This document shows positions 1 through 38,503 of a stretch of DNA of 46,077 nt, in pieces (position 1 is the first letter of the stretch; each line of letters starts with the position of its first letter). Source of the stretch: Oscillospiraceae bacterium. GTDB taxonomy: Bacteria > Bacillota > Clostridia > Oscillospirales > Oscillospiraceae. Where the stretch lies: NCBI GenBank assembly GCA_017620525.1, contig JAGAUY010000059.1:1-46077 (forward strand), written 5' to 3'. Made by a program: the position numbers and the translations under genes. Under the pieces are notes generated by a model. It was not told where the DNA came from and did not search any database. It saw only the letters and a list, made by a program, of their open reading frames with translations.

Positions 1-3000
1 CTCAACAACGATGGTCACATGGTACCAGTTGTTGGCACTGTCACTGATACAGAAGGAGGTGCCACACTCTTCCAGATTGATGGTAGCCTCGGTGACGTTG
101 CTTGCGAACTCCTCCCAGTTGTGAGAGCCATTGTAAATGTACATCTGACCGTAGACAACGGTATCAGTGATGTTCAGGAAGGTGACCTCGGTGGTGCCGG
201 CAGGAACGGTGACGGTCAGCTTCTGAGCCTGCATCACACCGCAGGTTTCGGTTCCGTTATCAACCAGATCTAGCTCCTCGCCACCAACCATAACGGTGAT
301 GCCGTATTCGGACTTGTACTCAGGTTCAACAGGTTCTTCGCCGCCTTCACCGGCTGCGTTGCAGAAAGAGATCGCCTGATTCACGCTGCCGTCCTTCCAG
401 AAGCAGGCTGCAATACCCTGCCATGCTTCCTCTGCGTAGAAATTATTGATGGAAAGCTCGATGGTCCAGGTACCATCCTCGTTAACTGTATAGGTGGGAG
501 AGTAATCTGTAGCCCAGGTCTCTCCGGTAAAGTCGATGCCGCGAACCCATGCATAGCCACCGTTGCCCTGAACAGAATCTGCGGGGAAGGTAACATATGC
601 CTTGGTTGCGTCCGCAGGCAGTACCACATGGAAGTAGGGATACCATTCACGAACACCTTCATAAGTGACAGTAATCACACCAGGCACATCACAGGTGATG
701 TCAGTGAACAGTGCTTCTTCAGGGATCACAGTTGCGGTAGTGCCGCAGCCGTTTGCACACTCGCCGTCCACGAAGTTATGGCCAGTGGGATCGGTGTAAT
801 CGCTCACGTAGCTGTCGCCGCACTCGCAGGTATAGGTGGTGTAGCCGCGCTCGGTACAGGTGGGATCAGTAACCACTGCATCGTACTCATGGATGTGGTC
901 GCCGCCCTCAATGGTCAGCAGCATGACTGCGGGGCTGGAGGAATTGGAAACCAGATAGTAGGTACCCAGCTCCAGGTCGGTGGTATCGATGGTCACCTTG
1001 CCGTTTTCATCGGTGGTCGCCATCAGGGTGCCGCTGGCAGGGGTTGTTTCGATCTCGTCCTTGGCAAACAGATAAACCTTGTGGCCCTCGCCTACCAGGT
1101 AGACAGGGGTGGTATAGTTGGCGTAGTCCTCGCCGGTACGGTAGATGTCCAGATCAAAAGACTGACCCTTGTTAACAGTCTTGGTGACCAGGGCCTTCTC
1201 GCCGAAGTGGTGATAGGTGCCCACATTGCCGGAGTTGTCATTGTAGCGCATGGAGACCACGTCGCCGTCACTCAGTTTGATCTGGTCACAGGTAGCGCCC
1301 CAACCGGGATAACCCAGGGGGTACTCATAGTTCATGTAGTAATTGAAGTTATAGCCGAAGTCCCACATATGGAAGAATGCGGAACCGGCAGTGGCGCTGT
1401 AGACGCTGAAGCCGGGCCAGCCATTTTCATACAGCCAGCCCTGACCGGCATCGGCGGGATCCAGATCATTGTAGTAGACCTCAGTCAGCCAGATCAGCGC
1501 GTGCAGCATAGTGACCACGCCGTCGGCCTGCTCCTTGGTACCGGGAGCCTGGCTGGCCTGACCTTCGGAATAGCAGTCGGGGTTGTAGTACAGGTACTCC
1601 ATGCCGTAGGCGGCCAGGTCAAAGTAAGGAACGGTCACTTCCTCCAGAGCCCAGACGACGCCGCCCTGTTCTACAAAGTGGTCGCCCTCTTCCACGGAGA
1701 AGTAGAAGGTCACATCGCCGTCAGAGGGGATAGCTTCCACGCCCTCAACGGTGATGACCAGGTCGGCAGTGACATTGGTCACGGTGTAAACGCCGTTTTC
1801 GTCAGGAGTGACGACCTCGCCGTTGACCTTGACCACCATATTGGTGGCATCATAGCCGTTCTTGATATCAACGGTGAAGGAGTAGTCCTCGCCGTTCTTG
1901 ACATAGCCTGCGCCGTCGGTGGTGTAGCCGTTACCGGCTGCCAGAGTCACCAGGAAAACGGTGGTGTCCTCAGCATAGGAGAAGGTGAAGCCTTCCAGCA
2001 CTTCGCCGCCGTCGGCCTTCCAGAAGCAGACTGCATAACCGGTACCAATTTCCTCAACGAGCAGATCGGTGATGGGCACCGCCACGGTAACAGAGCCGTC
2101 GGTATTTTCAGCGGCAGGCCACTGCTTCTGGGGAGAATAGGAGTAGTCGAAGGCATATTCCACAACCAGAGCCTGACCGCCGTAGACATAAATGGTGTCG
2201 GCAGGGTAAGTAACATAGGCGTAGCTGGAACCTCTGGGCACGACTGCGTGATAGTAGGGAATCCAGCCATCGATCATTTCCTGTTCGGTGACCAGCACAT
2301 CGCCTTCCATATCGGTGGTGATGCTCTGGTAATTTCCAGCCTTTTCCGCAACAGTAATCTTGACATGATAGTACTTGCCGCCGCAGCTGATGCACAGGCC
2401 GTCGTAGTTGACAACATCGGCCTCAAAGGTGGGCATTGCATTGCCGCCGAAGGTATGGCTCGTGCCGCTCATGTACTGGATGTTGGGAGATGCTTCTTCA
2501 TTTGTGCGTTCCACTGTCACAGAAGTGGTACCGGCGGGCACAGTGACATTGATGATGCGGAACATGGTGCTGACATAACGGGAAGTACAGGCTTCTGCGC
2601 CACCATCAACCAGTTCCATCTCAACATCGTTAACCTTGATCACGAAGCCAGCCTCATCCACAGAAGCCGCACCCTTCATAAAGAAGCCTGTAATGTCCAA
2701 ACCATGGGCGGGCATCACAAATGAATACAGGTTATTACCGAGATCGGTAAACGAAACACTGACCACATCATAGTTCTCAGTTTCCAACGCCTCAAAGTAG
2801 CCGAACTCATAGCCCTCATCCGGGGTTACGGTCAGGGTGACGGTTTCACCCTCAGCAGCTTCTTCCTTGTCCGCTTCCACGGTTCCGTGGTTACCTGTTA
2901 CATAGATTTCGTATTTGGTAACCTCGGGAGCAACATAGTCGGGATCGGCCTCACCGCAGACAGTGCAGGTGCCAGTTTCATAGCTGTGGCCCAGGGCTTC

Positions 3001-3486
3001 TCCCTCGGTTTCGCCGCACAGCGCACAGGTCTTGGGGGCAGTGCAGGTGGCATCAGTCCATTCATGTGTGCAGGTATCCTCCGCAACAGCGATATTCACA
3101 TGGTACCAATTGTTGGCACTGTCACTGACGCAGAAGGAAGTTCCGCACTCTTCCAGATTGATGGTTGCCTCAGTCACATTGCTTGCAAATTCTTGCCAGC
3201 TATGGTTACCGTTGTAAACGTACATCTGACCGTACACCACCGTGTCGGTGATGTTCAGGAAGGTGACCTCGGTGGTACCAGCGGGAACGGTGACTTCCAG
3301 CTTGGTTGCTTCCAGTATGCCGCAGGTCTCCGTACCACCCGCAACCAGATCCATTTCTGCGTCACCAACCAGAACGGTGATTCCGTATGTGGACTTGTAC
3401 TGCGTGTCAGCCGCAAACGCAGTCATCGGCAGCATTCCCAGCACCATGCAGAACACAAGGAGCAGAGAAAGAATTCGTTTTTTCAT
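1..3486 (-). CDS. Very large secreted repeat protein with DUF4430-like region, partial (C-terminus beyond left edge)
   Basis: The reading frame is open from ATG at 3486 to the window edge (1162 codons, no stop), so the C-terminus is missing. A good ribosome binding site (GGAGG) precedes the start. Residues 1-27 form a signal peptide ending in TAFA, so the protein is exported. An N-terminal domain (about residues 30-130) is repeated near the left edge (about 1060-1162). A CxxC module (PTCTERG, CECGDSY) lies near residue 870. About residues 585-745 match the DUF4430-like region of the dockerin protein at 5322-9455 (shared YFDLAxYG, NYYxNYEYPL, GWGATCDQI, DGD). It is the third gene of a minus-strand operon behind the cohesin and dockerin genes, so it probably shares their cobalamin riboswitch. 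No enzyme motif was seen. A role in corrinoid binding is inference. The missing C-terminus could carry a dockerin or an anchor. Confidence 0.88.
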   Translation of the reverse strand, partial: MKKRILSLLLVFCMVLGMLPMTAFAADTQYKSTYGITVLVGDAEMDLVAGGTETCGILEATKLEVTVPAGTTEVTFLNITDTVVYGQMYVYNGNHSWQEFASNVTEATINLEECGTSFCVSDSANNWYHVNIAVAEDTCTHEWTDATCTAPKTCALCGETEGEALGHSYETGTCTVCGEADPDYVAPEVTKYEIYVTGNHGTVEADKEEAAEGETVTLTVTPDEGYEFGYFEALETENYDVVSVSFTDLGNNLYSFVMPAHGLDITGFFMKGAASVDEAGFVIKVNDVEMELVDGGAEACTSRYVSTMFRIINVTVPAGTTSVTVERTNEEASPNIQYMSGTSHTFGGNAMPTFEADVVNYDGLCISCGGKYYHVKITVAEKAGNYQSITTDMEGDVLVTEQEMIDGWIPYYHAVVPRGSSYAYVTYPADTIYVYGGQALVVEYAFDYSYSPQKQWPAAENTDGSVTVAVPITDLLVEEIGTGYAVCFWKADGGEVLEGFTFSYAEDTTVFLVTLAAGNGYTTDGAGYVKNGEDYSFTVDIKNGYDATNMVVKVNGEVVTPDENGVYTVTNVTADLVITVEGVEAIPSDGDVTFYFSVEEGDHFVEQGGVVWALEEVTVPYFDLAAYGMEYLYYNPDCYSEGQASQAPGTKEQADGVVTMLHALIWLTEVYYNDLDPADAGQGWLYENGWPGFSVYSATAGSAFFHMWDFGYNFNYYMNYEYPLGYPGWGATCDQIKLSDGDVVSMRYNDNSGNVGTYHHFGEKALVTKTVNKGQSFDLDIYRTGEDYANYTTPVYLVGEGHKVYLFAKDEIETTPASGTLMATTDENGKVTIDTTDLELGTYYLVSNSSSPAVMLLTIEGGDHIHEYDAVVTDPTCTERGYTTYTCECGDSYVSDYTDPTGHNFVDGECANGCGTTATVIPEEALFTDITCDVPGVITVTYEGVREWYPYFHVVLPADATKAYVTFPADSVQGNGGYAWVRGIDFTGETWATDYSPTYTVNEDGTWTIELSINNFYAEEAWQGIAACFWKDGSVNQAISFCNAAGEGGEEPVEPEYKSEYGITVMVGGEELDLVDNGTETCGVMQAQKLTVTVPAGTTEVTFLNITDTVVYGQMYIYNGSHNWEEFASNVTEATINLEECGTSFCISDSANNWYHVTIVVE

Positions 3487-3518
3487 GCAAATAAACCTCC
3501 TACGTATAAACAGGGGTT

Positions 3519-3548
3519 TAGCCTGATGGCGCTGTGCACCATCAGGCT
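3519..3548 (-). other. Intercistronic hairpin
   Basis: A perfect 10-bp stem (AGCCTGATGG with CCATCAGGCT) lies between the stop of the cohesin gene and the start of the next gene. No T-run follows on either strand, so it is more likely an RNA processing or stability element than a terminator. Confidence 0.6.
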
Positions 3549-3585
3549 GTAATTATTCCCTGAATCTCAGAAGCAAAATGTTCCA

Positions 3586-5217
3586 TCAGGCCATTTTACG
3601 CTTCTTTGCGACCAGCAGAACGATAGCTGCGGCAGCCAGAACCATCATAGCAACCCATGCCATGATCATGCTGTTGTCGCCGGTCTGAGCAGAGGTCAGA
3701 TCTGCCTTGCAGTTATCGCAGACATTGTCCTTGTTAGCATCAGCATGGCCGGTAGCGGCAATGTCCTCAGTCTTCGTCTCACCGCACTCGGAGCAGGTGT
3801 AGGTCTTGACACCCTTCTTGGTGCAGGTTGCAGCAGTAGTCACCTTGCCCTCGTCCCAGATATGGGTGCCGGTAGCAGGAATCTCCTCGGTCTTGGTTTC
3901 ACCACAGGCAGAACAGGTGTAGGTCTTAACACCCTTCTCAGTGCAGGTAGCTTCGGTGGTTACCTTGCCCTCATCCCAAGTATGACCGGTCGCAGGAATC
4001 TCGACAGCAGTATCAGACTCACCACAGACAGTACACTTTGCAGTCTTTTCGCCAGCCTCAGTGCAGGTGGGCTCCTTCGTCACAGTGCCCTCGTCCCAGC
4101 TATGGCCGGTGGCAGGAATCACTTCAGTTGCAGTCTTCTCACCGCAGACAGAACAAGTGCCGGTCTTTTCACCGTCCTCGGTGCAGGTAGGCTCCTTGGT
4201 CACGGTGAAGTTGGTGACAGCGTGGCCCAGAGCATCAATGGATTCAGTGTAGCTATCGCCACAGGCGGAGCAGGTATAAGTCATCTCGCCGACTTCAGTG
4301 CAGGTGGGAGCCTTGGTCTGCTCACCAGCATAGTCGTGAGCCAGTTTGTCAGTGGTCTCCTGGGCAACGATGGTCTCGCCACAGACAGAGCAGTGGGAGC
4401 CCTCGGTCAGACCGGTGCTGGTGCAGGTTGCAGGAACAGCGGGATCCTTCACTTCGGTATGACCGGTGGCAGGAACAACAGTCTGGGCAACGATGGTCTC
4501 GCCGCAGACAGAGCAGTGGGAGCCTTCGGTCAGGCCGGTCTCGGTGCAGGTTGCAGGAACGGCTGCATCGGTAGCGGGGGTGTGGTCAACAGTAGCGATT
4601 TCTTCGGTGTAAGTAGCGCCGCAGCCCTCGAAGGTGCAGGTGTAGGTCTTAACACCCTTGGTAGTGCAGGTGGGCTCGGTGGTCACAACGCCGCCATCCC
4701 AGGTGTGCTCCTTGCAAACCAGGACGGAAACGCTGCTCTTGTAGGTCAGATCGCCCACGTTCTTGCCCTGGGCATTCTGAACATAGGCATTCTTGAACTC
4801 CAGAACGGTGTTCACGTGATCGGTGTCGATATCTTCCTTGGCCGTGAAGGTCACGGTGACAATGGTGCCGGCCTCAAAACCTACAGGCTGATAGTTGGCA
4901 AAGTCCAGATAAGTAAACAGAACCTTATCCTCCCTGGCTTGCTTCCGGGCTGCGAAAGCACTCAGGCTTGCGTAGTAGCTGCCCTTTTCAACACTGACAA
5001 ACTCCAGGACAGTGCCGTCATAGTGCAGCTCGCCCTGCATCATGGTTGCACCCTCGGAGATGTCGATATCCTCTTCCAGGGTGATGGTGACCGTCAGAGA
5101 GTCACCTGCGTTGATGTTGTCGGAACTTACGCTCACATCGATATTGGCGGCGTAGGCAGTAACAGCCAATCCACACATCAAAACAAGCGCAAGGACCAAA
5201 GAAATAATTTTTTTCAT
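3586..5217 (-). CDS. Cohesin-domain surface scaffold protein with CxxC repeats and sortase-type tail
   Basis: This 543-residue protein has a signal peptide (1-23, cleavage after AYA) and a beta-rich domain at about 24-168 that reads as a cohesin (ISEGATMMQGELHYD, then VLEFVSVEKG and a FEAGTIVTVTF strand). About 170-505 holds eight CxxC modules of the type PTCTEKG-TYTCSACGET-ATGH. It ends in SAQTGD (509-514), a hydrophobic segment (about 517-536) and a KKRK tail, which is a sortase sorting signal with Ala in place of the usual Pro. The ribosome binding site AAGGAG sits 8 nt before ATG. It lies between two large secreted genes, 104 bp after the dockerin gene, so a direct cohesin-dockerin interaction is plausible. 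The class B sortase at 15454 is a candidate for anchoring it. Cohesin assignment is by pattern and is not confirmed by a profile search. Confidence 0.85.
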   Translation of the reverse strand: MKKIISLVLALVLMCGLAVTAYAANIDVSVSSDNINAGDSLTVTITLEEDIDISEGATMMQGELHYDGTVLEFVSVEKGSYYASLSAFAARKQAREDKVLFTYLDFANYQPVGFEAGTIVTVTFTAKEDIDTDHVNTVLEFKNAYVQNAQGKNVGDLTYKSSVSVLVCKEHTWDGGVVTTEPTCTTKGVKTYTCTFEGCGATYTEEIATVDHTPATDAAVPATCTETGLTEGSHCSVCGETIVAQTVVPATGHTEVKDPAVPATCTSTGLTEGSHCSVCGETIVAQETTDKLAHDYAGEQTKAPTCTEVGEMTYTCSACGDSYTESIDALGHAVTNFTVTKEPTCTEDGEKTGTCSVCGEKTATEVIPATGHSWDEGTVTKEPTCTEAGEKTAKCTVCGESDTAVEIPATGHTWDEGKVTTEATCTEKGVKTYTCSACGETKTEEIPATGTHIWDEGKVTTAATCTKKGVKTYTCSECGETKTEDIAATGHADANKDNVCDNCKADLTSAQTGDNSMIMAWVAMMVLAAAAIVLLVAKKRKMA

Positions 5218-5237
5218 CTTCGATACTCCTTTTTTGT

Positions 5238-5263
5238 TGCGGCGGGGAAGGTGGTCTTCCCCG
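5238..5263 (-). other. Intercistronic hairpin
   Basis: GGCGGGGAAG pairs with CTTCCCCGCC between the dockerin and cohesin genes. No T-run follows on the transcribed strand. Together with the palindrome at 5288-5308 it may set transcript stability or processing between the two genes. Confidence 0.55.
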
Positions 5264-5287
5264 CCTTGGTTGATTTTATTCCGTTTT

Positions 5288-5321: not shown

Positions 5322-8300
5322 TTAGCCCTCCGCGGGGAAGGTATCGATCGTACCATAGTAGTAGGAAACGATCAGGTTTGCATCCTGGGTGTCGATGACA
5401 CCGTTGCCATCTACATCAGCCAGAGCAAGCTGCTCCTCGGTCAGCTCCTCGCTGCCGTAGTAGGCGGAAAGCAGCAGGTTGGCATCCTGGGTATCGATGA
5501 CGCCGTCCATGTTCACATCGCCAAGAGCGCAGGGCTGCTTCACCTTCAGCACGATCTCAGGAAGGGTACCCAGCTCCATACCCGCGTCAGAACCCCAAGC
5601 CATGCCTCTGTTTTCGCCGTAGCTGACCTTTCTGTGGCTGCCGATGCCGTCACCGGCGAAGCCGCCCATCTTGATGAAGCCGTTGAGGGTCAGGTTGTCC
5701 TCGCTCCAGTCCTCAGGAATCGTCACGGTGATGGTCTGGGGAAGGGAGCTGAAGTCATACTTGCCGTAGTAGGCGCCACTGCTGTTCTTATAGGCGTTGC
5801 CTGCCTGATCCGTGTAGGTGATCTGGGCATTGAAGTTATACTTGGTGGCGAACTTTTCTGCGGGGTTGGTAAGACCGGTAACAGTGATGCTGACGGTCTG
5901 ACCGGGGTTCAGCTTTTCCTCCAGGGAGATCTCGTTGCCCTCGCTGTCGGTCATGGTAACCGTGGTCTGGGTGGCGGTGACCACCTGGTAGCCGGCAACG
6001 CCGTCCTTTTCCAGCCGGATGATGTGACGGCCGGTGGTCAGACCGAAAACGGTGACCTCGCCGGTCTCGGCATTCACGGTGACCCCCTCGTCGGTGAATG
6101 CACCGAAGGAGAGCTTTTCCTCACCGACGGTGCTTCTGTTGACGGTAACGGTCACGCCCTCGTCGGGAATGAAGGAAACGCTTGCGCCCTCATCGCCATG
6201 ATAGAACTGGGGAGAATGCTCGGCGTCAAAGACGGCGCCGTTGCAGGTCATGTTGCTGTTGATGCCGGTGCCGTCCTTGCCAACGCTGACCACAAAGACG
6301 CCGGTTCTGTCAGGCCAAATGGCGGACAGCCGGTTGCCGCCGCCTGCGCCGCCCAGGGTGCCGGTTGCGGTGATCTCACTGTACATGGCGTCATAGGTCA
6401 CCAGAACGATGGCAGTACCCTCGCCCACTGCGGTCAGCACGGCTGCGCCGGTGTTATCCGCATCTGGGACGATGGAGATCACATTGTCGCCTTCGATGTT
6501 GACGATCTCATACTCAAAATCGGGGATAGCGATCTTATCGTTGGTGAAGCTGTTGATGGCCTGCCAGTTGCGGAACATATTCAGATCCTTGACTTCGCCC
6601 ACATCCAGATCAATGTAGCCCTGATTGTTGATATTCATGTAAATATCGCCCAGGTCGAAGCTGTAATACTCAAAATTACGGTAGATGGTATCTGCGTTGA
6701 ATTCACCCTCCGTGCCGGCATCGTTCATGAAGAGCATATCTTCCGTGACGGTGATAGTCTGACCGTCTGCCTTGGATGTCTTGTAATCCCAGTAGGTAAC
6801 GGCGTCATCATCGGGATTCTGAACACGGATGAAGGCATTGCCGCTGAGAGGCGCGAACTTATAGACGACGGTATCATCCACATTCTGCACATCGATGGCA
6901 TCTGCAAAAGTATAGGAGAAAGAGCCTGACAGGGTACCTGCAGAAACGATGGAGCCCGCAGGCGCAATGACGGCGAAATGCTTGATGTTCAGGGGAATGG
7001 TGACCTCGCCCGCAGCGGGGGTCTGCTCGATCAGTTCACCGGGGTTATATTTGCTTGCGTTATCGCCGCTGGCGGTTGCATTGTAGGTAAAGCCAGCCAG
7101 TGCGGGCAGCAGATAGGCATCGGCGGCGGTACCGGTGACAGTGACGCCCTCGGCGTCCTTAATCTCGATGATGGCTTCCGCGTCTGCATCGCCATTGTAA
7201 AGGGTAACCTCATAGGTGACCGTAACGATCTCCAGGGTCATACCCCCGGACACGGGTGCGCTCATGCCGATGACGCCCTCTGCTTCCCAGACGATCCGGG
7301 TGATGTTCTCGGGAACCTTCACGACGCCGTCTTCATAGACCAGTGCGTCGCCCTTCACCGCTTCACCGTCAACCACTTCGTTGACTGCATAGAAGACAGG
7401 CGCAGCGCCCTCGGGAACAATAACAGTCACATCATAGGTGACGGCAGAATTTTTGGCGTCCACGATGACGGTATAGGTATCCCAGGAATTCAGGATTCCG
7501 TCGTTTGCCCGGAAGACCAAGGTGTGCTCACCGGGGACGGTGGGAAGATAGCTGTAGCTGGTGCCTTCGACGGCTTCATAAGCGCCTCCGTCCACACTGA
7601 CCTGATAGGTCAGCGCGTCGCCGTCAGGATCGGTAAAGACACCGTCCAGGGCGATCTCATAGCTTTCATTGACGGTGATCTCGCCGGTGCTTTCCGCTGC
7701 CTGCCCCTCGGACAGAACGGGAGCCTTGTCCTTGGTATACAGAACCGTCCAGGTGCCCACGGTTCCGAAGGGGCTGGAAAGCTTAATGGTCTGGGTGGCA
7801 GTGCCGTCCACCAGAGTCACGTCACCGGTGCCGGAAATGCTGGGACGCAGGCCGGAGGTGGCGAAGCTGCTGGTGATCACAGCATCATCAGGAGTGTCTT
7901 CGGTGAGAATCACGATCAGGGAGCTGCCGTCCCAGATGTGCTCCAGGACGCCGCCTGCCTCGCCGCTGATGGTGCCATTGCCCAGCTTTGCCCAGTTATC
8001 GCCGTTGGCGGGGGTATCGGTGATCTCATAGGTGAAGGGTTCTGCCGCAGCCTTGACGGTCACGGTGCAGGCAGCTTCCGCATCGCCAGCCTTGGCGGTG
8101 ATGGTTGCTTCGCCTACGGCGACTGCGGTGACAACGCCGTCCTGGACGGTTGCGACAGCTTCGTCGGAGGAAGTCCAGGTGACAGTCTTATCGGTTGCAT
8201 TTTCAGGAGTGACGGTAGCAACCAGTGTTGCAGTGCCGCCGATTTCCAATTCCACAGCAGTCTGATCCAGGGTCACGCCGATGACAGCCACGTAGTCAGG

Positions 8301-9455
8301 ATCCGCCGCGCCGCAGACGGTGCAGATGCCTGCATCATAGCTGTGGCCCAGGGCATCGGTGTAATCGGCCACATAGCTGTCGCTGCATGCGCAGGTATAG
8401 GTGGTGTAGCCGTCCTCGGTGCAAGTGGGAGCAGTGACAACTGCCTCGTAGCTGTGGGTATGGGCGGGCGCTGCCACCGTCAGGCGGATGCCGCCGGGGG
8501 TGGAGCAGATCTCATCGGGATACTCCACGCCGTACTGGCCTGCCATGGCGATGATGTATTCGCCGGCTTCCAGCTCAGTGGTGTCAACCACCAGGGTGCC
8601 GTCAGCTTCGGCGGTGCCCAGGTAAGTCCACTCAGTCACATCGCCGGAGGGAATATCATCCACGGGGGCATAGTACACATCGGGGCAGTAATCAATGACG
8701 GTATGAGCGGTGGTGTAATTGCCGCTCATGTCAGCACCCGCATGGTACAGGGTCAGGGTGACCGCGTCGCCCTGGGTGGGATTCTCGTTGTCAGCCACCG
8801 CATAATTGAAGATGCTGGTGGAATCGGAGTAGAAGCTCCAGCCGGTGAAGTGGCCCAGGGTCATGATGTCGCCATCCCGGAGGAGGATCTGATCGCAGGT
8901 GGCACCCCAGCCCTCAGAAGCCAAGGGATACTCGTAGTTGACGTAGTAATTCAGGTTCATATCCACGCCCCAGATATAGTTCAGGAACGCCGAACCCTGG
9001 CTGCCGCCCACATCCAGCACTTCCGTACCCAGCAGGCCTTCATCATACAGATAACCCTGACCAGCTTCCGTGGGGTCAACGCCACAGTAGTAGACTTCCA
9101 GTGCATAAATGTACAGGTGCAGCAGCGTGACCTTACCTTCAGCATACTCAGCGGTGCCGGGGGCCAGATCACTGCCTGGCTGGCCGTCGCCGTCGTCACT
9201 GTAAGTCTCGGAGACAAAATAGAATTGCTCCAGACCATAGTTTGCAAGATCGAAGTAAGGAACAGTGATTTCCTTCAACGCCATGACCTCGCCGGTGGCG
9301 TCACCAACAAGATAGCTTGCATCATCGGAAATGGAGAAGTAAACGGTGACGGAATCGTCAGCCGCTTCACCGGTCTCTACCGCGAAAACGGAGCCCGGGA
9401 GCATTCCCAGCACCATGCAGATCGCAAGGAACAGGGAAAGCAATCGTTTCTTCAT
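5322..9455 (-). CDS. Secreted dockerin protein with DUF4430-like and bacterial Ig-like domains
   Basis: This 1377-residue protein has a signal peptide (1-25, GSVFA). Residues about 37-200 form a DUF4430 (transcobalamin-C-like) region with NYYVNYEYPL and LRDGDIM. A CxxC module (PTCTEDG, TCACSDSY) lies at about 333-390 and a BIG2 Ig-like domain (VTLDQTAVELEIGGTATL) at about 392-470. The long middle part has further beta-rich modules that I cannot name. Residues about 1308-1372 are a type I dockerin: two calcium loops, DVNMDGVIDTQDA and DVDGNGVIDTQDA, each followed by a helix. It is the first gene of the operon behind the cobalamin riboswitch at 9600-9800, and the next gene encodes a cohesin. 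In the known transcobalamin family the equivalent domain contacts cobalamin, so corrinoid binding is the leading inference. The ribosome binding site is TAGGAGG. Confidence 0.9.
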   Translation of the reverse strand: MKKRLLSLFLAICMVLGMLPGSVFAVETGEAADDSVTVYFSISDDASYLVGDATGEVMALKEITVPYFDLANYGLEQFYFVSETYSDDGDGQPGSDLAPGTAEYAEGKVTLLHLYIYALEVYYCGVDPTEAGQGYLYDEGLLGTEVLDVGGSQGSAFLNYIWGVDMNLNYYVNYEYPLASEGWGATCDQILLRDGDIMTLGHFTGWSFYSDSTSIFNYAVADNENPTQGDAVTLTLYHAGADMSGNYTTAHTVIDYCPDVYYAPVDDIPSGDVTEWTYLGTAEADGTLVVDTTELEAGEYIIAMAGQYGVEYPDEICSTPGGIRLTVAAPAHTHSYEAVVTAPTCTEDGYTTYTCACSDSYVADYTDALGHSYDAGICTVCGAADPDYVAVIGVTLDQTAVELEIGGTATLVATVTPENATDKTVTWTSSDEAVATVQDGVVTAVAVGEATITAKAGDAEAACTVTVKAAAEPFTYEITDTPANGDNWAKLGNGTISGEAGGVLEHIWDGSSLIVILTEDTPDDAVITSSFATSGLRPSISGTGDVTLVDGTATQTIKLSSPFGTVGTWTVLYTKDKAPVLSEGQAAESTGEITVNESYEIALDGVFTDPDGDALTYQVSVDGGAYEAVEGTSYSYLPTVPGEHTLVFRANDGILNSWDTYTVIVDAKNSAVTYDVTVIVPEGAAPVFYAVNEVVDGEAVKGDALVYEDGVVKVPENITRIVWEAEGVIGMSAPVSGGMTLEIVTVTYEVTLYNGDADAEAIIEIKDAEGVTVTGTAADAYLLPALAGFTYNATASGDNASKYNPGELIEQTPAAGEVTIPLNIKHFAVIAPAGSIVSAGTLSGSFSYTFADAIDVQNVDDTVVYKFAPLSGNAFIRVQNPDDDAVTYWDYKTSKADGQTITVTEDMLFMNDAGTEGEFNADTIYRNFEYYSFDLGDIYMNINNQGYIDLDVGEVKDLNMFRNWQAINSFTNDKIAIPDFEYEIVNIEGDNVISIVPDADNTGAAVLTAVGEGTAIVLVTYDAMYSEITATGTLGGAGGGNRLSAIWPDRTGVFVVSVGKDGTGINSNMTCNGAVFDAEHSPQFYHGDEGASVSFIPDEGVTVTVNRSTVGEEKLSFGAFTDEGVTVNAETGEVTVFGLTTGRHIIRLEKDGVAGYQVVTATQTTVTMTDSEGNEISLEEKLNPGQTVSITVTGLTNPAEKFATKYNFNAQITYTDQAGNAYKNSSGAYYGKYDFSSLPQTITVTIPEDWSEDNLTLNGFIKMGGFAGDGIGSHRKVSYGENRGMAWGSDAGMELGTLPEIVLKVKQPCALGDVNMDGVIDTQDANLLLSAYYGSEELTEEQLALADVDGNGVIDTQDANLIVSYYYGTIDTFPAEG

Positions 9456-9599
9456 GTAAAGAAACCTCCTAACAATAAAAATATGTATGCAAACGCCGTG
9501 AAAGGCGCTAAGCGGGGTTAATGCCGGCCTGCTTCGGCGCGGATATCCGCCGGAGCATTTGACTTAAGCTGCGTGCGTTTTTTCGAAAGCACACAGTTT

Positions 9600-9800
9600 G
9601 TAGGTCTTCTGACTGACACGTTCAGACGCTTTCCTCTGCGTCAGCGCCCGCTCCCCGCCTTCTCAGGTTTCCCCAATGACCCGCTTTCGCGGAAAGGAAG
9701 TGGGCTTCGTGCTTACAGCACAACGGGTCAAACCCGCCGTGTTCCGGTTTCTCACCGGATTCCCTTGTTCAGCAGAACAAGAATGCGTGTCTCATGGATC
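9600..9800 (-). promoter_or_regulatory. Cobalamin riboswitch (upstream of the dockerin operon)
   Basis: Read on the minus strand it has the family's landmarks in order: GGGAATCCGGTGAGAAACC, the CCCGTTGTGCTGTAAGC core, GGGTCATTGGGGAAACC, GAGAAGGC, and the B12 box AGTCAGAAGACC at about 9602-9615. The 140-nt stretch between the box and the gene at 9455 contains a CGCC/GGCG hairpin (about 9495-9510, followed by a T-rich run) that could act as the expression platform. Known cobalamin riboswitches repress on ligand binding, so the operon is expected to be on when corrinoid is scarce. Confidence 0.92.
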
Positions 9801-10082: not shown

Positions 10083-10496
10083 TTATTTTTTCTCTCGCTT
10101 CTGTTTCTTTTCCTGCTGCTCTCTGAGCCGCTGCTGGGCTTTCTGCTTCTTAATTGCCTTCTTCTGACGGTATACGGTCTTCTGCTGTTCCACTTCCTCG
10201 TGGTATCGGGCAAAATTAGCAGGTTTGTTGGCAATCGTGGGTTGGGGCAGTTTGGCTTTGCGCAGCACCAGTTCCCAGGACTCAAAACGCTTCAGGATCA
10301 TTTCTCCACCAACAATTTCTCTGTGCCAGGGAGAATGTCCCAGCTTTTCAGCACACTCTCTCACATAAGAGAGCAGCTGCTCGTCAGAATCATTTTCATG
10401 CTCCAGCGCAAACTGTTCCTCCTGCGCCTGCAAGGATTCTGTAACCATACGGCGGATCACCGCCTCATAAATCTCATGTCTTTTAGGGTACGGCAT
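10083..10496 (-). CDS. Small basic protein with homing-endonuclease-associated (HNH) repeat, under tandem cobalamin riboswitches
   Basis: This 137-residue protein has one copy of the pattern found in HNH-associated repeats, at about 37-83: DSDEQLLSYVRECAEKLGHS, then RFESWELVLRKAKL. The C-terminal third (about 95-137) is a highly charged Lys/Gln/Arg helix (QKKAIKKQKAQQRLREQQEK), likely a coiled coil or nucleic-acid-binding tail. No nuclease catalytic motif is present. The ATG has an AAGGA site just upstream, and the riboswitch terminator at 10521-10547 ends 24 bp before it. Why a cobalamin riboswitch should control such a protein is unclear; a DNA- or RNA-binding regulator of the neighbouring operon is one guess. 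Confidence 0.8.
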   Translation of the reverse strand: MPYPKRHEIYEAVIRRMVTESLQAQEEQFALEHENDSDEQLLSYVRECAEKLGHSPWHREIVGGEMILKRFESWELVLRKAKLPQPTIANKPANFARYHEEVEQQKTVYRQKKAIKKQKAQQRLREQQEKKQKREKK

Positions 10497-10520: not shown

Positions 10521-10547
10521 AAAAGCGCCGGTATGCATACCGACGCT
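10521..10547 (-). terminator. Riboswitch terminator before the 10083-10496 gene
   Basis: On the minus strand AAGCGTCGGTAT pairs with ATACCGGCGCTT around a 3-nt-or-less loop and is followed by TTTTTATATTT. It sits between the second aptamer and the start codon, as expected for a transcriptional riboswitch. Confidence 0.85.
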
Positions 10548-10631
10548 TGCCTGAAAATGGGCGCACTACCCCTAGGGTAATACGTGTACACCTTGAGAAA
10601 CGCGTCGCAGCATACAAATAATTCCGTTGTT

Positions 10632-10805
10632 CCATGTAAGTCTCCTGGCTTGTGCTTCGCGCAATTGCGCACGGCTCCATTCCTACCTTCTCAGATCTCT
10701 CCAATGGCGGACTTTCGTCCAACGGTTTCCCGCTTCGGATGGTGCCTAGCACTCACAGTACCGGTCGTGTGGGTTCTTACCCCGTTCATCTAAAGGCAAA
10801 TACCT
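10632..10805 (-). promoter_or_regulatory. Cobalamin riboswitch, second of a tandem pair
   Basis: The minus strand shows a GGGGTAAGAACCC core, GACCGGTACTGTGAGTGC, GCCATTGGAGAGATCTGAGAAGG and the B12 box AAGCCAGGAGACTTAC at about 10637-10652. A strong terminator (10521-10547) follows. I see no clear promoter of its own between it and the upstream riboswitch, so it is probably reached by read-through from that unit. Confidence 0.9.
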
Positions 10806-10863
10806 GGATATTTCTATCTGTACGGTAAATGCCAGCATGGTACATCTCTATATGTAATTGTGA

Positions 10864-10901: not shown

Positions 10902-10977
10902 GAATTTCTCGCCCCTAACCTTGTCCCTCGTCAGAGTATGGATACACAAGCCTCCTGACGCCCTTCAAGCTCGATCA

Positions 10978-11150
10978 TGGCCGACATTCTGGCTCATGCA
11001 TTGGGGAGAGGAATCCCTCCTGCGTTCACATTCCGCCTTCCCAGTTTCCCAGTGACCGGATCACTCCATGAATGTAAACTCCTGCATATACAGCAACGGG
11101 CAAAGCTCCGGACTCTCACCGGATTTCCTAATCTCCGCACCTGCCATTCC
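10978..11150 (-). promoter_or_regulatory. Cobalamin riboswitch, first of a tandem pair
   Basis: Minus-strand landmarks are GGAAATCCGGTGAGAGTCC, CCCGTTGCTGTATATGC, CCGGTCACTGGGAAACTGGG, AAGGCGGAA and a B12-box-like GAGCCAGAATGTCGGCC at 10980-10996. No open reading frame lies between this unit and the next riboswitch, so it seems to act in series with it rather than on a gene of its own. Confidence 0.88.
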
Positions 11151-11230
11151 TGACAGTCTTGATGGGAGACGCCATGCAGCTTATTCAGTTTGATGTATGG
11201 GCGTAATCGCACCATTACATCTACGCTGAC

Positions 11231-11354: not shown

Positions 11355-11579
11355 TCAATCCTCTGTGAAGCTGTATTTGATTTGCTTTGCACCCACATCC
11401 AGAGATATTACGATCTCTCCATCTGGCTTCACCGTGACCTGCAATTCTCCGTCTTTTTCGATGGAACGGATATGGGCTACAGGATCGTCGGTGGTAACAG
11501 TCTGCACCTGCACCACTTTGGGAGACTTACCGCCACAAGGAGGCTGGCGGCGCTCTATGATCAGCTCATAGGTTTTCAT
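11355..11579 (-). CDS. Small conserved-looking hypothetical protein
   Basis: A 74-residue protein whose start overlaps the DUF2284 stop by an ATGA-type 4-nt overlap, so the two are translationally coupled. It has no signal peptide or membrane segment. It begins with a basic strand (MKTYELIIERRQPP), has CGGKSPK, and ends in a beta-rich part (GELQVTVKPDGEIVISLDVG). I do not recognise the family. Coupling suggests that it works with the DUF2284 protein. Confidence 0.7.
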   Translation of the reverse strand: MKTYELIIERRQPPCGGKSPKVVQVQTVTTDDPVAHIRSIEKDGELQVTVKPDGEIVISLDVGAKQIKYSFTED

Positions 11580-12124
11580 TCCGCTTTCTCCTTGTAAGCA
11601 AACATACCAAACAGATACAGCTTATCCTGTTCCCACGCAAATTTTAGGCCGCCTTCCTTTGCCAGCTTCGCCACGTCGATGCAGTAGGCGGACATACAAC
11701 TGATTCGCTTTTCCGGGAACGCACAGGGTTCATTCATTACCCGCTTACAGGGATCACACAGGGGGCAGCCGCCGTAGCCCAGACAAAAGCCTTTCAATCC
11801 TGCCTGACGCAGCTTTTCTGTCAACCGCAGAATCATGGCATTGTGGGTTTTCTTGGATTCCAGTATCCCAGCCTTGTTCTCATAGCTTCCAATCTCCCAG
11901 ATAGACTGGAGCACCAGTGCCTTGTCCTGTGCCATCAGCCGCTGACGGGTCTCCTCCACGGTGCCGCAGTCTGGCGGGCAGGAGTAATTGGCATTGAATT
12001 TTCCACACAGGTTTTCCTCGCAGAAAGGCCGGAACTTGGCATCCACTACGATCTCCGACGTTGGAATGATGGCGGCAGTAAAGTCTGCCTCCTGTGCAAT
12101 TTCCAAAAGCTGTGTATCTGTCAT
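11576..12124 (-). CDS. DUF2284 predicted metal-binding protein
   Basis: A 182-residue cysteine-rich protein. It has the DUF2284 pattern: CEENLCGKFNANYSCPPDCG near residues 37-56, GYGGCPLCDPCKRVMNEPC near 117-135, and a late SCMSAYC motif. The many conserved cysteines suggest metal or Fe-S binding; the reaction is not known to me. The start at 12124 is chosen for the AAAGGGTG site just upstream, rather than an upstream in-frame start. It shares about the same layout as the frameshifted gene at 14574-15114, so this locus has two paralogues on opposite strands around the MATE and LysR genes. Confidence 0.88.
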   Translation of the reverse strand: MTDTQLLEIAQEADFTAAIIPTSEIVVDAKFRPFCEENLCGKFNANYSCPPDCGTVEETRQRLMAQDKALVLQSIWEIGSYENKAGILESKKTHNAMILRLTEKLRQAGLKGFCLGYGGCPLCDPCKRVMNEPCAFPEKRISCMSAYCIDVAKLAKEGGLKFAWEQDKLYLFGMFAYKEKAE

Positions 12125-12215
12125 AAGTATCACCCTTTCTCTTTTAAAGCATAGCACAGTCAAAAAGCATTTTCAAGATAATAAAGGGACCCGACCATAT
12201 GGATTTCTTCGCTGC

Positions 12216-13553: not shown

Positions 13554-13665
13554 ACACCTCATCTCGCTGTATTCATCCAACGCATGATACCCTTGACAGC
13601 CGGAAAAGTAAAATGTATAGTTGAGATAGCATCTATATCTAATTGACATGATTTGAGGTGGCATC

Positions 13666-14577
13666 ATGCATATCAATCTGGATTCCTACCGGGTGTTCTA
13701 TTATGTGGCGCAGTACCGCAGCTTCACCAAAGCGGCGGAATTGCTCTACAGCAATCAGCCCAACGTGACCCGGACGATCAAAAATCTGGAGCAAGCCCTG
13801 GACTGTACGCTCTTTAACCGCACCAGCCGCAATGTTCAGCTGACTCCGGAGGGCGAAGAGCTGTTCTCCCACATCGCCCCCGCCATGCAGCAGATCAAGG
13901 CAGGAGAAGAATCCGTTCTGCTTCACAGCAAGCTTCAAGGCGGCACCATCAGCATCGGTGTCAGTGAGATTGCCCTACATCTGGTCCTCTTACCCGTGCT
14001 GGAAGCTTTCCGTCAGGAATATCCGGGCATCCGCCTGCGGATCTTTAACTCCAATTCCCAGCAGGCGGTTTCCGCGCTGAAAAATAAATTGGTGGATTTC
14101 TCCCTTGTTACACCTCCCACCCAGGAATCCGAAGCTTTTCTTTGCACCCCAGTTGCAGCATTTCAGGAGGTTCCTGTATGCGGGAAAGCGTATTTTCATT
14201 TAGTAGATCAGACTCTGAACTTGGATGAATTGATTTCGTTGCCCATGATCAGCCTATGTAAAGGCACATCTACCCATCAGCTCTATACGGACTGGTTCCG
14301 GGAACACGATCTATCTTTCTCTCCTGACATTGAAGCGGCAACCGCAGATCAGATTCTCCCCATGGTCCGTGCAAATCTGGGAATTGGCTTTATACCGGAG
14401 CAGGCTGCGAAAAAAGCCGCCGCAGATGGCAGCATCTCGATTCTAAAGCCGAAGGAGAATCCCCCAAAGCGAACCATTTCCCTCCTAAAACGAAAGGATA
14501 TGCCCTTGAGCATTGCCGCAGTAGAACTGGAACGAATGCTGCTTCATCGCAAACAAGAAAAGGATGGTGCATTATGA
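13666..14577 (+). CDS. LysR-family transcriptional regulator
   Basis: A 303-residue protein with an N-terminal winged helix (SFTKAAELLYSNQPNVTRTIKNLE, residues about 18-41) and a periplasmic-binding-protein-like effector domain from about 90 (GGTISIGVSEIA). LysR proteins bind operators near their own and divergent promoters. It is transcribed away from the MATE gene and overlaps the next DUF2284 frame by 4 nt (ATGA), so it is cotranscribed with it. Its ligand is unknown. Confidence 0.93.
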   Translation: MHINLDSYRVFYYVAQYRSFTKAAELLYSNQPNVTRTIKNLEQALDCTLFNRTSRNVQLTPEGEELFSHIAPAMQQIKAGEESVLLHSKLQGGTISIGVSEIALHLVLLPVLEAFRQEYPGIRLRIFNSNSQQAVSALKNKLVDFSLVTPPTQESEAFLCTPVAAFQEVPVCGKAYFHLVDQTLNLDELISLPMISLCKGTSTHQLYTDWFREHDLSFSPDIEAATADQILPMVRANLGIGFIPEQAAKKAAADGSISILKPKENPPKRTISLLKRKDMPLSIAAVELERMLLHRKQEKDGAL

Positions 14578-15114
14578 CCAGTGAACAAATCATTCAATAT
14601 GCCGTGGAGGAAGGCTTCGCTGCCGCTGCCATTGTGGATACCGGCGACATCGTATTTGATCCTTCCTTTTGCCCCTACTGCGAAGAAAATCTCTGCGGCC
14701 AGTATGGCGCCAACTATTCCTGCCCTCCCGATTGTGGCAGCCCGGAAGCGATGAAACAAAAGGTGCTTGCACATAAGAAGGCGTTGGTGCTGCAGACCAT
14801 CTGGGAGATCTCCGATTACTCCGACGTGACCATGATCAAGCCCGCCAAAGCATCCTACAACGCTTCAGAGATTCGTCTTAGTGAAGCGGCTCCGGTCAGA
14901 GGGGTGCGACGGATTCATCGTAGGAGCCAGCGGCTGTGCCTTGTGCAGTCCCTGCGTACGTGCCCAAGGTGAACCCTGTCGCTTCCCGGAGTATCAGTAT
15001 TCCTGTATGTCCGCCTACTGCATCTTCGTCAAAAGATTAGCGGATAAGTGCGGTATGGAGTATGATTGTGGTAACGGTCTGCTGGCTTTCTTTGGAATGT
15101 ATGTTTTCGATTGA
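14574..15114 (+). pseudogene. DUF2284 gene with a one-base frameshift
   Basis: The first part (14574 to about 14880) encodes CPYCEENLCGQYGANYSCPPDCG and KALVLQTIWEIS, and the rest is carried in the next frame from about 14881 to 15114 (KRLRSEGCDGFIVGASGCALC, SCMSAYCIFVKRL). Joining the frames gives a full-length homologue of the 11576-12124 protein. Comparison puts the shift at about 14875-14884, where one extra base (for example in CTTAGTGAAG) restores the frame. It may be a real inactivating mutation, an assembly or sequencing error, or programmed slippage. The first explanation is weakened by the otherwise intact sequence on both sides. Confidence 0.82.
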
Positions 15115-15167
15115 CTTTCTCCCGATGGCAACTTATAATCATTGATAACAAACGAATATGTTCTTGT

Positions 15168-15345
15168 GGCTGTATGGTACGCAGGTCGGCTGTACAGCTT
15201 AAAAAGAGAATGGGGTGAAAAGCCCCGCACGCAACGGTGCTGTAAGTATCGAGAGGTTTGTTTCGTCGGTGGAAGCCGGTCATTGGGGAAACCTGAGAAG
15301 GCAGAAACTTATCCTCGTATGAGATGCGAGTCAGAAGAACTACAA
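15168..15345 (+). promoter_or_regulatory. Cobalamin riboswitch (upstream of the sortase gene)
   Basis: Plus-strand landmarks: GAGAATGGGGTGAAAAGCCCC, CGCAACGGTGCTGTAAG, GGAAGCCGGTCATTGGGGAAACC, TGAGAAGGC and a B12-box-like GCGAGTCAGAAGAACT at about 15326-15341. A GC-rich terminator (15399-15430) follows before the sortase start. A ligand-bound state would favour termination and low sortase expression. Confidence 0.88.
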
Positions 15346-15398
15346 GAGCAAGAATTGCAGGGTCACTCCCCTGCTTATTTGTGTTGCGTAAAAGCGTT

Positions 15399-15430
15399 CG
15401 CGGCAGTCTGTCAGGCTGCCGCGATTTTTA
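15399..15430 (+). terminator. Riboswitch terminator before the sortase gene
   Basis: CGCGGCAG pairs with CTGCCGCG and is followed by ATTTTTATTTT, 24 bp before the ATG at 15454. A weaker GCAGGG/CCCTGC hairpin at 15357-15374 could be the competing stem. Confidence 0.85.
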
Positions 15431-15453
15431 TTTTCGCAGAAAGAGGTCTTTCC

Positions 15454-16278
15454 ATGAAAGTTCAGCGTATTCTAATCAACATCATAATCGTACTCTTAGT
15501 TATTATATTTCTAATGTGCGGTTATCTGGTAATCGATTATTTCCGGGAAAGCAACACCCAGCAGGAGCAATTCAATAATCTTGCCTCGCTTGTTGAGCAG
15601 GCACAAAATCCGCCCTCTCTCCCTGTCGAAAACGAAACCACCCTTCCTGCCGACATTTCCGATGAAACAGCTCCGACCGCTGAGACTGAAGGAACTGAAT
15701 CAGGCGGAATTTTACCGGAATACGCACAGCTTTATGAACTGAACTCCGACATTGTTGGATGGATCAAAATCGACAACACCTCCATCAATTACCCCGTTAT
15801 GCAGACTCCTGACAGCAAAGACTACTATCTTCGCCGTGACTTTTATAAAAATTACAGTTCCCACGGCTGCATCTTTGTCCGGGAAGAATGCGATGTATCT
15901 GCACCATCCGATAACATTACGATTTACGGCCACCATATGCGTGACGGCAGTATGTTTTCCGATCTTGATGATTTCACAAGCTATACTTTCTGGGAAGAAA
16001 ATGGAGTCTTTACATTTGATACACTGACGGAACATCATGCATACCAGGTATTTGCGGTATTCAAAACAACGACCAGTGCCGGAGAAGGTTTTGCTTACCA
16101 TCAGTTTGTTGATGGAACTGAATCTGAGTTTAACGATTTTGTTGCGACCTGCCAAAGCCTTGCTTTTTATGATACGGGTATTACCCCCGTATATGGTGAT
16201 AAGATCATCTGCCTGTCCACCTGCGAGTATTCGCAGGCCAACGGCCGCTTGGTGGTAGCTGCTGTAAGAATCAGCTAA
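15454..16278 (+). CDS. srtB: Class B sortase
   Basis: A 274-residue protein with an N-terminal membrane anchor (about 6-28, IIIVLLVIIFLMCGYLVI), a low-complexity linker and a sortase domain from about 85. The catalytic triad is visible: His in YGHHM, Cys in CLSTCEY, and Arg in LVVAAVRIS. DIVGWIKIDNTSINYPVMQ and the TC-E context fit class B. Sortases cleave sorting signals and link proteins to the cell wall outside the membrane. The start is ATG 15454 with an AGAGG site; the frame is open further upstream but that stretch is riboswitch. The cohesin protein at 3586-5217 (SAQTGD tail) is the only clear substrate candidate in the window, and both genes lie behind cobalamin riboswitches. Confidence 0.93.
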   Translation: MKVQRILINIIIVLLVIIFLMCGYLVIDYFRESNTQQEQFNNLASLVEQAQNPPSLPVENETTLPADISDETAPTAETEGTESGGILPEYAQLYELNSDIVGWIKIDNTSINYPVMQTPDSKDYYLRRDFYKNYSSHGCIFVREECDVSAPSDNITIYGHHMRDGSMFSDLDDFTSYTFWEENGVFTFDTLTEHHAYQVFAVFKTTTSAGEGFAYHQFVDGTESEFNDFVATCQSLAFYDTGITPVYGDKIICLSTCEYSQANGRLVVAAVRIS

Positions 16279-16387
16279 AACGAAATTCCAATTCCCCGGA
16301 GCTTTATTTTCACAAATTCTCCGCAATTATGGTTCCCAGATTCTCCGTTTTTCCCATTGAATTATCTACATACAAATGGTAGAATTA

Positions 16388-16490
16388 CGAGGTTATCGTG
16401 GGAAACAGGTGCAAATCCTGTACGGGGCCGCCGCCGTGAAGTACATCCAAAAAATCTGTACCAGTCGGTTTCACGAATAGCCAAATACTC
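16388..16490 (+). promoter_or_regulatory. Cobalamin riboswitch, compact variant (upstream of DUF4430 lipoprotein)
   Basis: Plus-strand landmarks are GTGGGAAACAGGTGCAAATCC, ACGGGGCCGCCGCCGTGA and a final GCCAAATACTCG that resembles the B12 box. The aptamer is shorter than the other four. The 50 nt to the start codon contain no clear terminator; TAAGCATTTTC-like pairing near the AAGGAG site (16530-16536) could block ribosome binding instead. Confidence 0.75.
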
Positions 16491-16544
16491 GTTATAAGCT
16501 GCGAGCACCAGCGAAGGAGAAAATGCTTATAAGGAGAACCTGAA

Positions 16545-17297
16545 ATGAAAAAACTGATTTCCCTGCTGCTGGTTCTGGTCATGGCCTTTGGCCTGGTCGC
16601 CTGCGGCACCGCCGATGCTCCCGAAACCACCGAGGGCACCACGGAAGACACTTCTGCTGAAACCACTGCTTCTACCGAAGCCGAGGTTGCAGGTGTTGCT
16701 TTCACCGTTGTTGTGACCGATCTGGACGGCACTGATACCACCTTTGAGTACACTTCCGATGCAGAATCCGTCGGCGCAGCGCTGCTGGCTGAAGGTCTGA
16801 TCGCTGGTGACGAGAGCGAATACGGCCTGTATGTCACCTCTGTCAATGGCATCACCGCTGACTGGACCACAGAAAACGCCTACTGGGCATTCTACATCGA
16901 TGGCGAGTACGCTCAGACCGGTGTGGACGCTACTGAGATCACCGAGGGCACTACTTACTCTTTTGTTAAGACCATTTCCTATACTGTGATGGGCGAAGGT
17001 TCTACCACTTTCTACTTCACCGCACAGGATGTGGACGGCGCTGTGACCAAGTATGAGATCCATACCGATGCCACCACCGTGGGCGAGGCCCTGCTGGCTC
17101 TGGAGCTGATTGCCGGTGATGACAGCGAGTACGGCCTGTATGTCACTTCTGTCAATGGCATCACCGCTGACTGGGACACCGAGAAGGCTTACTGGGCATT
17201 CTACATTGATGGCGAGTATGCTCAGACTGGTGTGGATGCCACCGAGATCGTTGCTGGCAGCATCTACGAGATGGTCAAGACTGTTTCCGAGGAATAA
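16545..17297 (+). CDS. Lipoprotein with two tandem DUF4430 (transcobalamin-C-like) domains
   Basis: A 250-residue protein with a lipoprotein signal (lipobox LVAC, Cys20) and a Thr/Glu/Ser linker (21-50). Two repeats follow (about 51-145 and 150-247). Each has VxDLDG or VxDVDG, a SEYGLYVTSVNGITADW block, AYWAFYIDGEYAQTGVDATEI and a final VKT strand. The repeats are near-identical also at the DNA level (about 16820-16950 and 17120-17250), so the duplication is recent or kept alike by gene conversion. DUF4430 is the domain family that includes the C-terminal part of transcobalamin. With a cobalamin riboswitch upstream, cobalamin or corrinoid binding at the membrane surface is the likely job; no transporter gene lies next to it. 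Start: AAGGAG 8 nt before ATG. Confidence 0.9.
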   Translation: MKKLISLLLVLVMAFGLVACGTADAPETTEGTTEDTSAETTASTEAEVAGVAFTVVVTDLDGTDTTFEYTSDAESVGAALLAEGLIAGDESEYGLYVTSVNGITADWTTENAYWAFYIDGEYAQTGVDATEITEGTTYSFVKTISYTVMGEGSTTFYFTAQDVDGAVTKYEIHTDATTVGEALLALELIAGDDSEYGLYVTSVNGITADWDTEKAYWAFYIDGEYAQTGVDATEIVAGSIYEMVKTVSEE

Positions 17298-38502: not shown

Positions 38503-38503
38503 A

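Follow-up and report, generated by a model that had tools for sequence, protein, structure and literature searches.

Some gut Clostridia appear to hold B12-catching proteins at their surface through cohesin-dockerin couplings: a riboswitch-associated locus in an Oscillospiraceae bacterium

A cellulosome is built on a scaffoldin with multiple cohesins, which holds dockerin-bearing carbohydrate-active enzymes and a carbohydrate-binding module. The contig of an Oscillospiraceae bacterium that was analysed here (JAGAUY010000059.1, all 46,077 nucleotides, hereafter the window) likewise encodes cohesin and type I dockerin domains, and the cohesin proteins of some relatives have dockerin-like ends. 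It differs from a cellulosome in its single-cohesin anchor, in its apparent control by cobalamin (vitamin B12) and in the composition of its three large surface proteins (P0001, P0002 and P0003), which hold one cohesin and match no glycoside hydrolase, other carbohydrate-active enzyme or carbohydrate-binding family of Pfam. Judging from the DNA alone, some gut Clostridia appear to hold B12-catching proteins at the cell surface through cohesin-dockerin couplings that are switched on when B12 is scarce.

Scavenging of B12 at the bacterial surface has been predicted before. For Gram-positive bacteria, Burroughs (2007) defined a transcobalamin-like clade within the SLBB superfamily of beta-grasp proteins (PMC1796856; this and most other papers are cited for individual passages). 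As at the present locus, the clade comprises secreted or anchored transcobalamin-like proteins with alpha/alpha toroids and CbiO/CbiQ-like transporters as neighbours; surface scavenging of B12 was predicted and several such proteins were suggested to form surface complexes (PMC1796856). The words "dockerin" and "riboswitch", however, do not occur in the main text of that paper, and what is added here is a domain that we name VPYFDL, the joining by cohesin and dockerin, and the riboswitch control. In animal transcobalamin and intrinsic factor an alpha/alpha toroid and a beta-grasp domain sandwich B12 (PMC1796856), and DUF4430 lies in the C-terminus of the vertebrate carriers (PMC4350170). Toroid and DUF4430 both occur at our locus, but mostly as separate proteins and without a match to PF01122.

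The BtuB/BtuG/BtuH system of Bacteroidetes is a Gram-negative outer-membrane system whose parts are not known to be related to those of this locus. There too surface proteins capture B12 for a transporter (PMC6977713, PMC8941943). Import of a cobamide by an energy-coupling factor (ECF) transporter, which is also the predicted substrate and route here, is described for Lactobacillus delbrueckii, whereas a surface capture complex is not mentioned in the passage cited (PMC6977713). Many Gram-positive gut bacteria depend on B12 from others and little is known of its collection outside the membrane; for these bacteria passages of the same review name transporters only (PMC6977713). In the open-licence literature searched we found no cohesin-dockerin B12 assembly, no riboswitch control of such an assembly and no VPYFDL domain. 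Hence surface scavenging as such was predicted before, and the assembly principle is new relative to the literature searched; the original prediction for this DNA, made without database searches, was aware of no described system of this kind, which is to be qualified accordingly. If the reading is true, cohesin-dockerin joining acquires a new role and a function is suggested for a domain family that occurs across gut Clostridia and is carried by Hornefia butyriciproducens and Eubacterium minutum ATCC 700079.

Surface proteins, riboswitches and operon

The window is the entire contig C77 of genome G000 (2.09 Mb, 68% complete). Protein families were scored with Pfam and NCBIfam, RNA elements with Rfam RF00174 (cut-off 31.5 bits), and the features are collected in Table 1. 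The dockerin of P0003 (PF00404, 31.4 bits against a cut-off of 22.9, E 2.2e-7; DNA 5367-5525) has two duplicated calcium-loop segments, DVNMDGVIDTQD and DVDGNGVIDTQD. P0002 contains the cohesin (PF00963, 42.4 bits against 24.1, E 9.9e-11; DNA 4768-5136) and ends in the sorting signal SAQTGDNS with a hydrophobic tail, which scores barely above the cut-off of TIGR01167 (16.6 against 15.9 bits). With one cohesin matched, P0002 is to be seen as an anchor and not as a scaffold of several cohesins, and the word scaffold in the original prediction was too strong. Its calls of a cohesin, a dockerin, a class B sortase and a lipoprotein with two DUF4430 stretches were all borne out by the profile searches. 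The third large secreted protein that it noted, P0001, is present and proved to be dockerin-ended as well, its C-terminal domain being found on contig C7 (Pfam E 1.4e-9). P0001 and P0003 have a common stretch of 385 residues that is 40% identical. Relatives of the DUF4430 lipoprotein were found at loci L040, L086, L038/L055, L056 and L039.

Three riboswitches of the window exceed the RF00174 cut-off, while the one that the original prediction placed before the DUF4430 lipoprotein (16340-16530) falls short of it. This last element is nevertheless kept, in an alignment and ahead of the same lipoprotein, in four genomes (those of the window, L040, L086 and L038), and on account of this conservation it is a probable riboswitch variant. 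At the ribosome-binding region of this element the segments TTATAAGC / GCTTATAA recur, which suggests translational control. Downstream of the element that precedes the surface-protein operon no clear terminator was seen (fold z -0.49), and the hairpin after the 10961-11189 element is absent from the consensus terminator list. A diverged element at about 10620-10860, for which Rfam lists nothing at E 0.1, is kept in three genomes (window, L086 and L040) and has motifs in common with elements of L038, L056 and L044. The three elements over the cut-off and the one at 16340-16530 are the only RF00174 matches at E 0.001 in G000, as far as a 68%-complete genome can tell.

Contig C7 ends in 141 bases that are identical to the first 141 of the window, and the operon extends past the window. 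On C7 it continues after P0001 with genes for further surface proteins, for an ECF transporter and for assembly of the nucleotide loop (Table 1), of which CobS and CobU score below the NCBIfam equivalog cut-offs. This run of genes is retained in G181 and G182 and also in G192, save for CobT, which lies outside the stretch examined there. For the dockerin protein of some 1500 residues a CobN-type chelatase was considered and set aside in view of its cadherin-like, PQQ-propeller and dockerin matches in Pfam.

Among the three locus dockerins the identity is 87-92%, against 28-39% to a dockerin on contig C3 of the same genome. This near-identity, in proteins that otherwise differ and share an operon with the cohesin, suggests that the parts of the locus meet. 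Corresponding values in other genomes are 75-77% for three locus dockerins of G181 and 43-65% in G198. The cohesin proteins of G182, G192, G185 and G198 themselves end in dockerin-like repeats, with which tiers would be possible. The dissimilar dockerin on C3 belongs to a second cohesin-dockerin pair of G000 (L091, about 23010-23736).

Table 1. Features of the window and of the operon continuing on contig C7 ("same", same strand as the operon).
Feature	Position	Strand	Evidence
P0001, large secreted protein cut by contig end	1..3486	-	second VPYFDL domain at DNA 901-1716
P0002, 543-aa protein	3586..5217	-	one cohesin, Cys-rich repeats, C-terminal sorting signal
P0003, 1377-aa secreted protein	5322..9455	-	VPYFDL domain, Big_2 2.4e-14, C-terminal type I dockerin
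VPYFDL domain of P0003 (name given here)	8466..9353	-	domain profile 402 bits
Cobalamin riboswitch ahead of surface-protein operon	9582..9798	-	RF00174 53.7 bits
Small HNH_repeat protein	10083..10496	-	PF18780 7.6e-10
Diverged riboswitch-like element, then terminator-like hairpin 10523-10548	about 10620..10860	-	conservation, motifs
Cobalamin riboswitch, then terminator-like hairpin	10961..11189	-	RF00174 38.9 bits; hairpin z -3.23
Cobalamin riboswitch, then strong terminator-like hairpin 15398-15424	15152..15361	+	RF00174 54.1 bits; z -5.0
Class B sortase	15454..16278	+	TIGR03064 162.6 bits, cut-off 153.75
Probable shortened riboswitch variant extending into ribosome-binding region	16340..16530	+	RF00174 24.8 bits, below 31.5
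Lipoprotein, lipobox-like LVAC, two DUF4430 domains	16545..17297	+	PF14478 68 bits (cut-off 23.8), E 1e-18
Proline-rich 1237-aa protein	contig C7, after P0001	same	N-terminal hydrophobic segment
MoxR-type ATPase	contig C7	same	PF07726 188.2 bits
DUF58 protein	contig C7	same	24.7 bits, cut-off 23.4
Transglutaminase-core membrane protein	contig C7	same	44.4 bits
1514-aa protein	contig C7	same	cadherin-like, PQQ-propeller and dockerin domains
Alpha/alpha-toroid lipoprotein	contig C7	same	
DUF4430 protein	contig C7	same	72.7 bits
ECF ATPase genes	contig C7	same	ECF_ATPase_1 355.4 bits, cut-off 315
ECF S component	contig C7	same	ECF-ribofla_trS 8.7e-16, 58.8 bits, cut-off 26.7
Two EcfT-like proteins	contig C7	same	T components named by eye
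CbiR-like protein	contig C7	same	TIM-barrel PF01261 78.2 bits, cut-off 31.1
CobT	contig C7	same	TIGR03160 427.6 bits, cut-off 319.3
CobS	contig C7	same	PF02654 143.7 bits, cut-off 23.2
CobU	contig C7	same	PF02283 34 bits, cut-off 27, last third only
CobC-like histidine phosphatase	contig C7	same	TIGR03162 117.4 bits, below cut-off 162.9

The VPYFDL domain and its loci in other genomes

The VPYFDL domain is composed of a core (about residues 1-175) and an Ig-like part (about residues 176-296). For the copy in the window Pfam offers no match at E 1, and DUF4430 is not among the 25 of 34 Pfam families that were listed for 44 members of the domain, the remaining families matching at most one member each. 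An AlphaFold2 model from the 44-sequence alignment reached a pLDDT of 92.9 and a pTM of 0.91, and in this model the core seems to follow the order strand-strand-helix-hairpin-strands, as in the beta-grasp fold, of which the SLBB or transcobalamin-like form has a helix following strand 2 and a hairpin inserted; an earlier model from six sequences was poor (pLDDT 68.2) and was not used for the fold search. The core profile matched the DUF4430 profile over 24-30 columns, which include a YYVN...DGD motif. The score was 33.5, whereas 80 shuffles of the columns averaged 12.7 and did not exceed 17.9. As this score is far above those of the shuffles, the core is likely to be homologous to DUF4430, although the match is short. 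With the VPYFDL profile (A2) the DUF4430 alignment A4 gave an E of only 0.02 and the 23-row alignment A5 gave 1.7e-4. When the VPYFDL alignment was searched against sequences of solved structures the matches listed fell in the Ig-like half, and A4 and A5 found nothing significant among Protein Data Bank (PDB) sequences.

A search with the six-sequence alignment yielded 39 VPYFDL loci in 38 genomes, almost all of them titled Clostridia or related gut bacteria. These loci are not independent, as L070 matches L071 exactly along 5.5 kb and L055 and L056 are close. A riboswitch over the RF00174 cut-off lies less than 500 nucleotides upstream on the same strand at 23 of the 39 loci (22 of 38 if L070 and L071 are merged), with distances that are approximate because start codons were picked by a script. 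By chance 0.019 loci would be expected, a figure which is not a probability since the loci are related. Four more loci have the riboswitch farther upstream; of the 12 loci without one over the cut-off, L041 and L059 were examined over fewer than 300 upstream nucleotides. In Hornefia butyriciproducens and Eubacterium minutum no riboswitch over the cut-off adjoins the VPYFDL gene. At L050 a TwoAYGGAY RNA motif (9221-9385(+), 86.8 bits) stands directly upstream of the cobalamin riboswitch and the VPYFDL gene. One copy, at L077 (3277-4083(+)), comes from the record of a Methanomassiliicoccaceae archaeon in whose genome no cobalamin riboswitch was matched, and either transfer or mis-binning would account for it.

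At least 16 of the 39 loci encode a dockerin at the C-terminus, 12 of which are among the 23 with a riboswitch. This count was made from C-termini read by eye and from Pfam placements and is a lower bound, Pfam scoring having covered 18 chosen genomes only; a regular-expression search, which missed many true dockerins, was not its basis. Among the other copies, those of L053 and L070 (by Pfam) and of L071, identical to L070, carry SLH domains at the end, and those of L050 and L057 have transmembrane-like tails. Thus the mode of anchoring varies and the VPYFDL domain is constant. The gene order of the window is found again at L043/L086 of G181 (domain-dockerin protein, anchored cohesin, domain-dockerin protein, proline-rich protein), where the anchored cohesin has a tail like SxQTGDNS. 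At L053 the VPYFDL domain, a toroid and DUF4430 are joined in one SLH-anchored protein, and at L070 the domain is fused with two DUF4430 in an SLH protein; the parts fused there are separate, partly dockerin-tagged proteins at the window locus.

The 18 genomes are the window's own, 16 with a dockerin-tagged VPYFDL protein, and G178. In these, 27 of 51 cohesins (2.2 expected) and 26 of 78 dockerins (3.6 expected) are no more than 15 kb away from a cobalamin riboswitch, counts that include three riboswitches below the cut-off and draw on an incomplete list of weak matches. Among 10 cohesin-bearing relatives chosen by kinship, G135 being the one in which the domain itself had been looked for, the same holds for one of 34 cohesins (in G158), 11 of the 34 belonging to three genomes where no riboswitch was matched. 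In 14 of the 18 genomes, or in 13 if only matches over the cut-off are counted, a cohesin and the VPYFDL gene are at most 15 kb apart.

Proposed function and alternatives

From the observed gene content, gene order, conservation and riboswitch matches we infer regulation, pairing, binding and transfer as follows. The cobalamin riboswitch class acts OFF (PMC11477304), so that corrinoid scarcity would permit expression. The sortase would attach the single-cohesin P0002 to the cell wall, and the dockerin-ended P0003, P0001 and the 1514-aa protein of C7 would plug into its cohesin. Cobamides would be captured by the VPYFDL domains together with the membrane DUF4430 and alpha/alpha-toroid proteins and passed to the ECF transporter, after which the CbiR-like, CobT, CobS, CobU and CobC-like enzymes could rebuild the lower ligand. 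We regard it as probable that the locus specifies a corrinoid-repressed, cohesin-dockerin-joined surface complex that catches corrinoids for import and remodelling. This plan, in its outline already that of the original prediction, is strengthened by the continuation of the operon into ECF, DUF4430, toroid and nucleotide-loop genes and by the recurrence of riboswitches directly before VPYFDL genes and of cohesins near them. With somewhat less assurance we lean towards its fuller form, namely a vitamin-capture counterpart of the cellulosome, sortase-anchored and in some relatives multi-tiered, carrying several corrinoid-binding proteins of a hitherto unnamed beta-grasp-like domain family and feeding a split transcobalamin (toroid plus DUF4430), an ECF importer and cobamide remodelling.

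The large proteins also carry Ig-like, cadherin-like and propeller modules as in adhesins, no Pfam family ties the VPYFDL domain to B12, and cohesin/dockerin adhesins have been proposed in syntrophic sulfate reducers (PMC10553843). They might therefore mediate a B12-regulated adhesion to fibre, mucus or neighbouring cells that is merely co-regulated with a separate uptake module of toroid, DUF4430 and ECF proteins. We hold this to be unlikely, because VPYFDL is fused to DUF4430 within one SLH protein at L053 (with the toroid as well) and L070, because its core profile resembles DUF4430 well beyond the best shuffle (33.5 against 17.9), and because the VPYFDL gene itself, and not the uptake module alone, stands behind the riboswitch. 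What the complex takes up could instead be cobalt, cobinamide or a further precursor and not the complete cobamide, considering that salvage by CobU, CobS and CobT works on cobinamide too. Cobalt uptake genes also occur under cobalamin riboswitches (PMC11477304). This seems to us more doubtful still, as the ECF S component has its matches among S families of the vitamin type (ECF-ribofla_trS, 8.7e-16) and DUF4430 is found in the C-terminus of the vertebrate B12 carriers (PMC4350170). The second cohesin-dockerin pair on contig C3 would suit a further view, in which ordinary cellulosome parts have come to lie among B12 genes by chance. Several related records are, by their titles, from ruminant guts, where cellulosomes occur. 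To this we give hardly any credence, given that no carbohydrate-active enzyme or carbohydrate-binding family was matched in the window proteins, that the arrangement reappears with the same riboswitches across several genera and that the gene order is retained in L043.

A number of observations weigh against the corrinoid-capture complex. Its binding and its expression are deduced from sequence. The two EcfT-like proteins match no Pfam family at E 0.001 and the CbiR-like protein misses the cut-off of NF041277 (41.2 of 105 bits). In 10 toroid proteins searched to E 10, nine families were matched, with Prenyltrans in nine of the proteins and PF01122 in none, and the toroid alignment led to squalene-type cyclases among PDB sequences. 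The Foldseek and VIA lists for the VPYFDL model consist of matches to the Ig-like part with no transcobalamin among those listed, so that the core was barely probed. Locus dockerins are only 28-44% alike in G182, G192 and G185; 12 of the 39 loci have no same-strand riboswitch over the cut-off in the stretch examined; and the set of 18 genomes had been selected for the presence of the VPYFDL domain. The domain proper occurs in just 4 of 150 genomes of the family (12 matched overall, eight of them solely in a short C-terminal repeat) and was absent from G049 and G135, which are of the same genus. The sortase, moreover, was found at only two of 41 locus groups, its own included, and its link to the complex is weak beyond the window. 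At L079 a sortase-related open reading frame (1-630) adjoins a protein that by eye resembles one of conjugative elements, and the sortase may instead be a mobile-element gene.

With regard to the need for corrinoids, CbiC, an enzyme of the corrin ring, was found in three of 13 genomes (G180, G186 and G210) and not in G000 and nine others, including G181, G182 and G192, absences that speak for the capture reading but are provisional in draft genomes. PF02310, the only B12-binding enzyme family searched, exceeds its cut-off in seven of eight genomes. The exception is G000, with two 20-bit matches only, and this gap either counts against the capture complex or is a sign of the incomplete genome.

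Other features of the window

Next to the B12 locus, within 23143-34329, there are mobile-element genes, among them phage-type integrases (23143 and 33187) and a MobL relaxase (31618), which might explain the patchy distribution of the locus. Of 41 locus groups, 11 include the small HNH_repeat protein, close to cobalamin riboswitches and the VPYFDL gene. A DUF2284 gene at 14574-15114(+) is split between two frames and a second one, at 11576-12163(-), is unbroken; DUF2284 is present at L041, L047 and L056 as well. A gene for a PemK/MazF-type toxin (22012-22826(+); PF02452, 2.5e-31) follows a pemK RNA motif (RF02913, 55.4 bits). Finally, two ABC ATPase/permease pairs are encoded at 37705-41146(-), and a TetR-type regulator at 41792(+).

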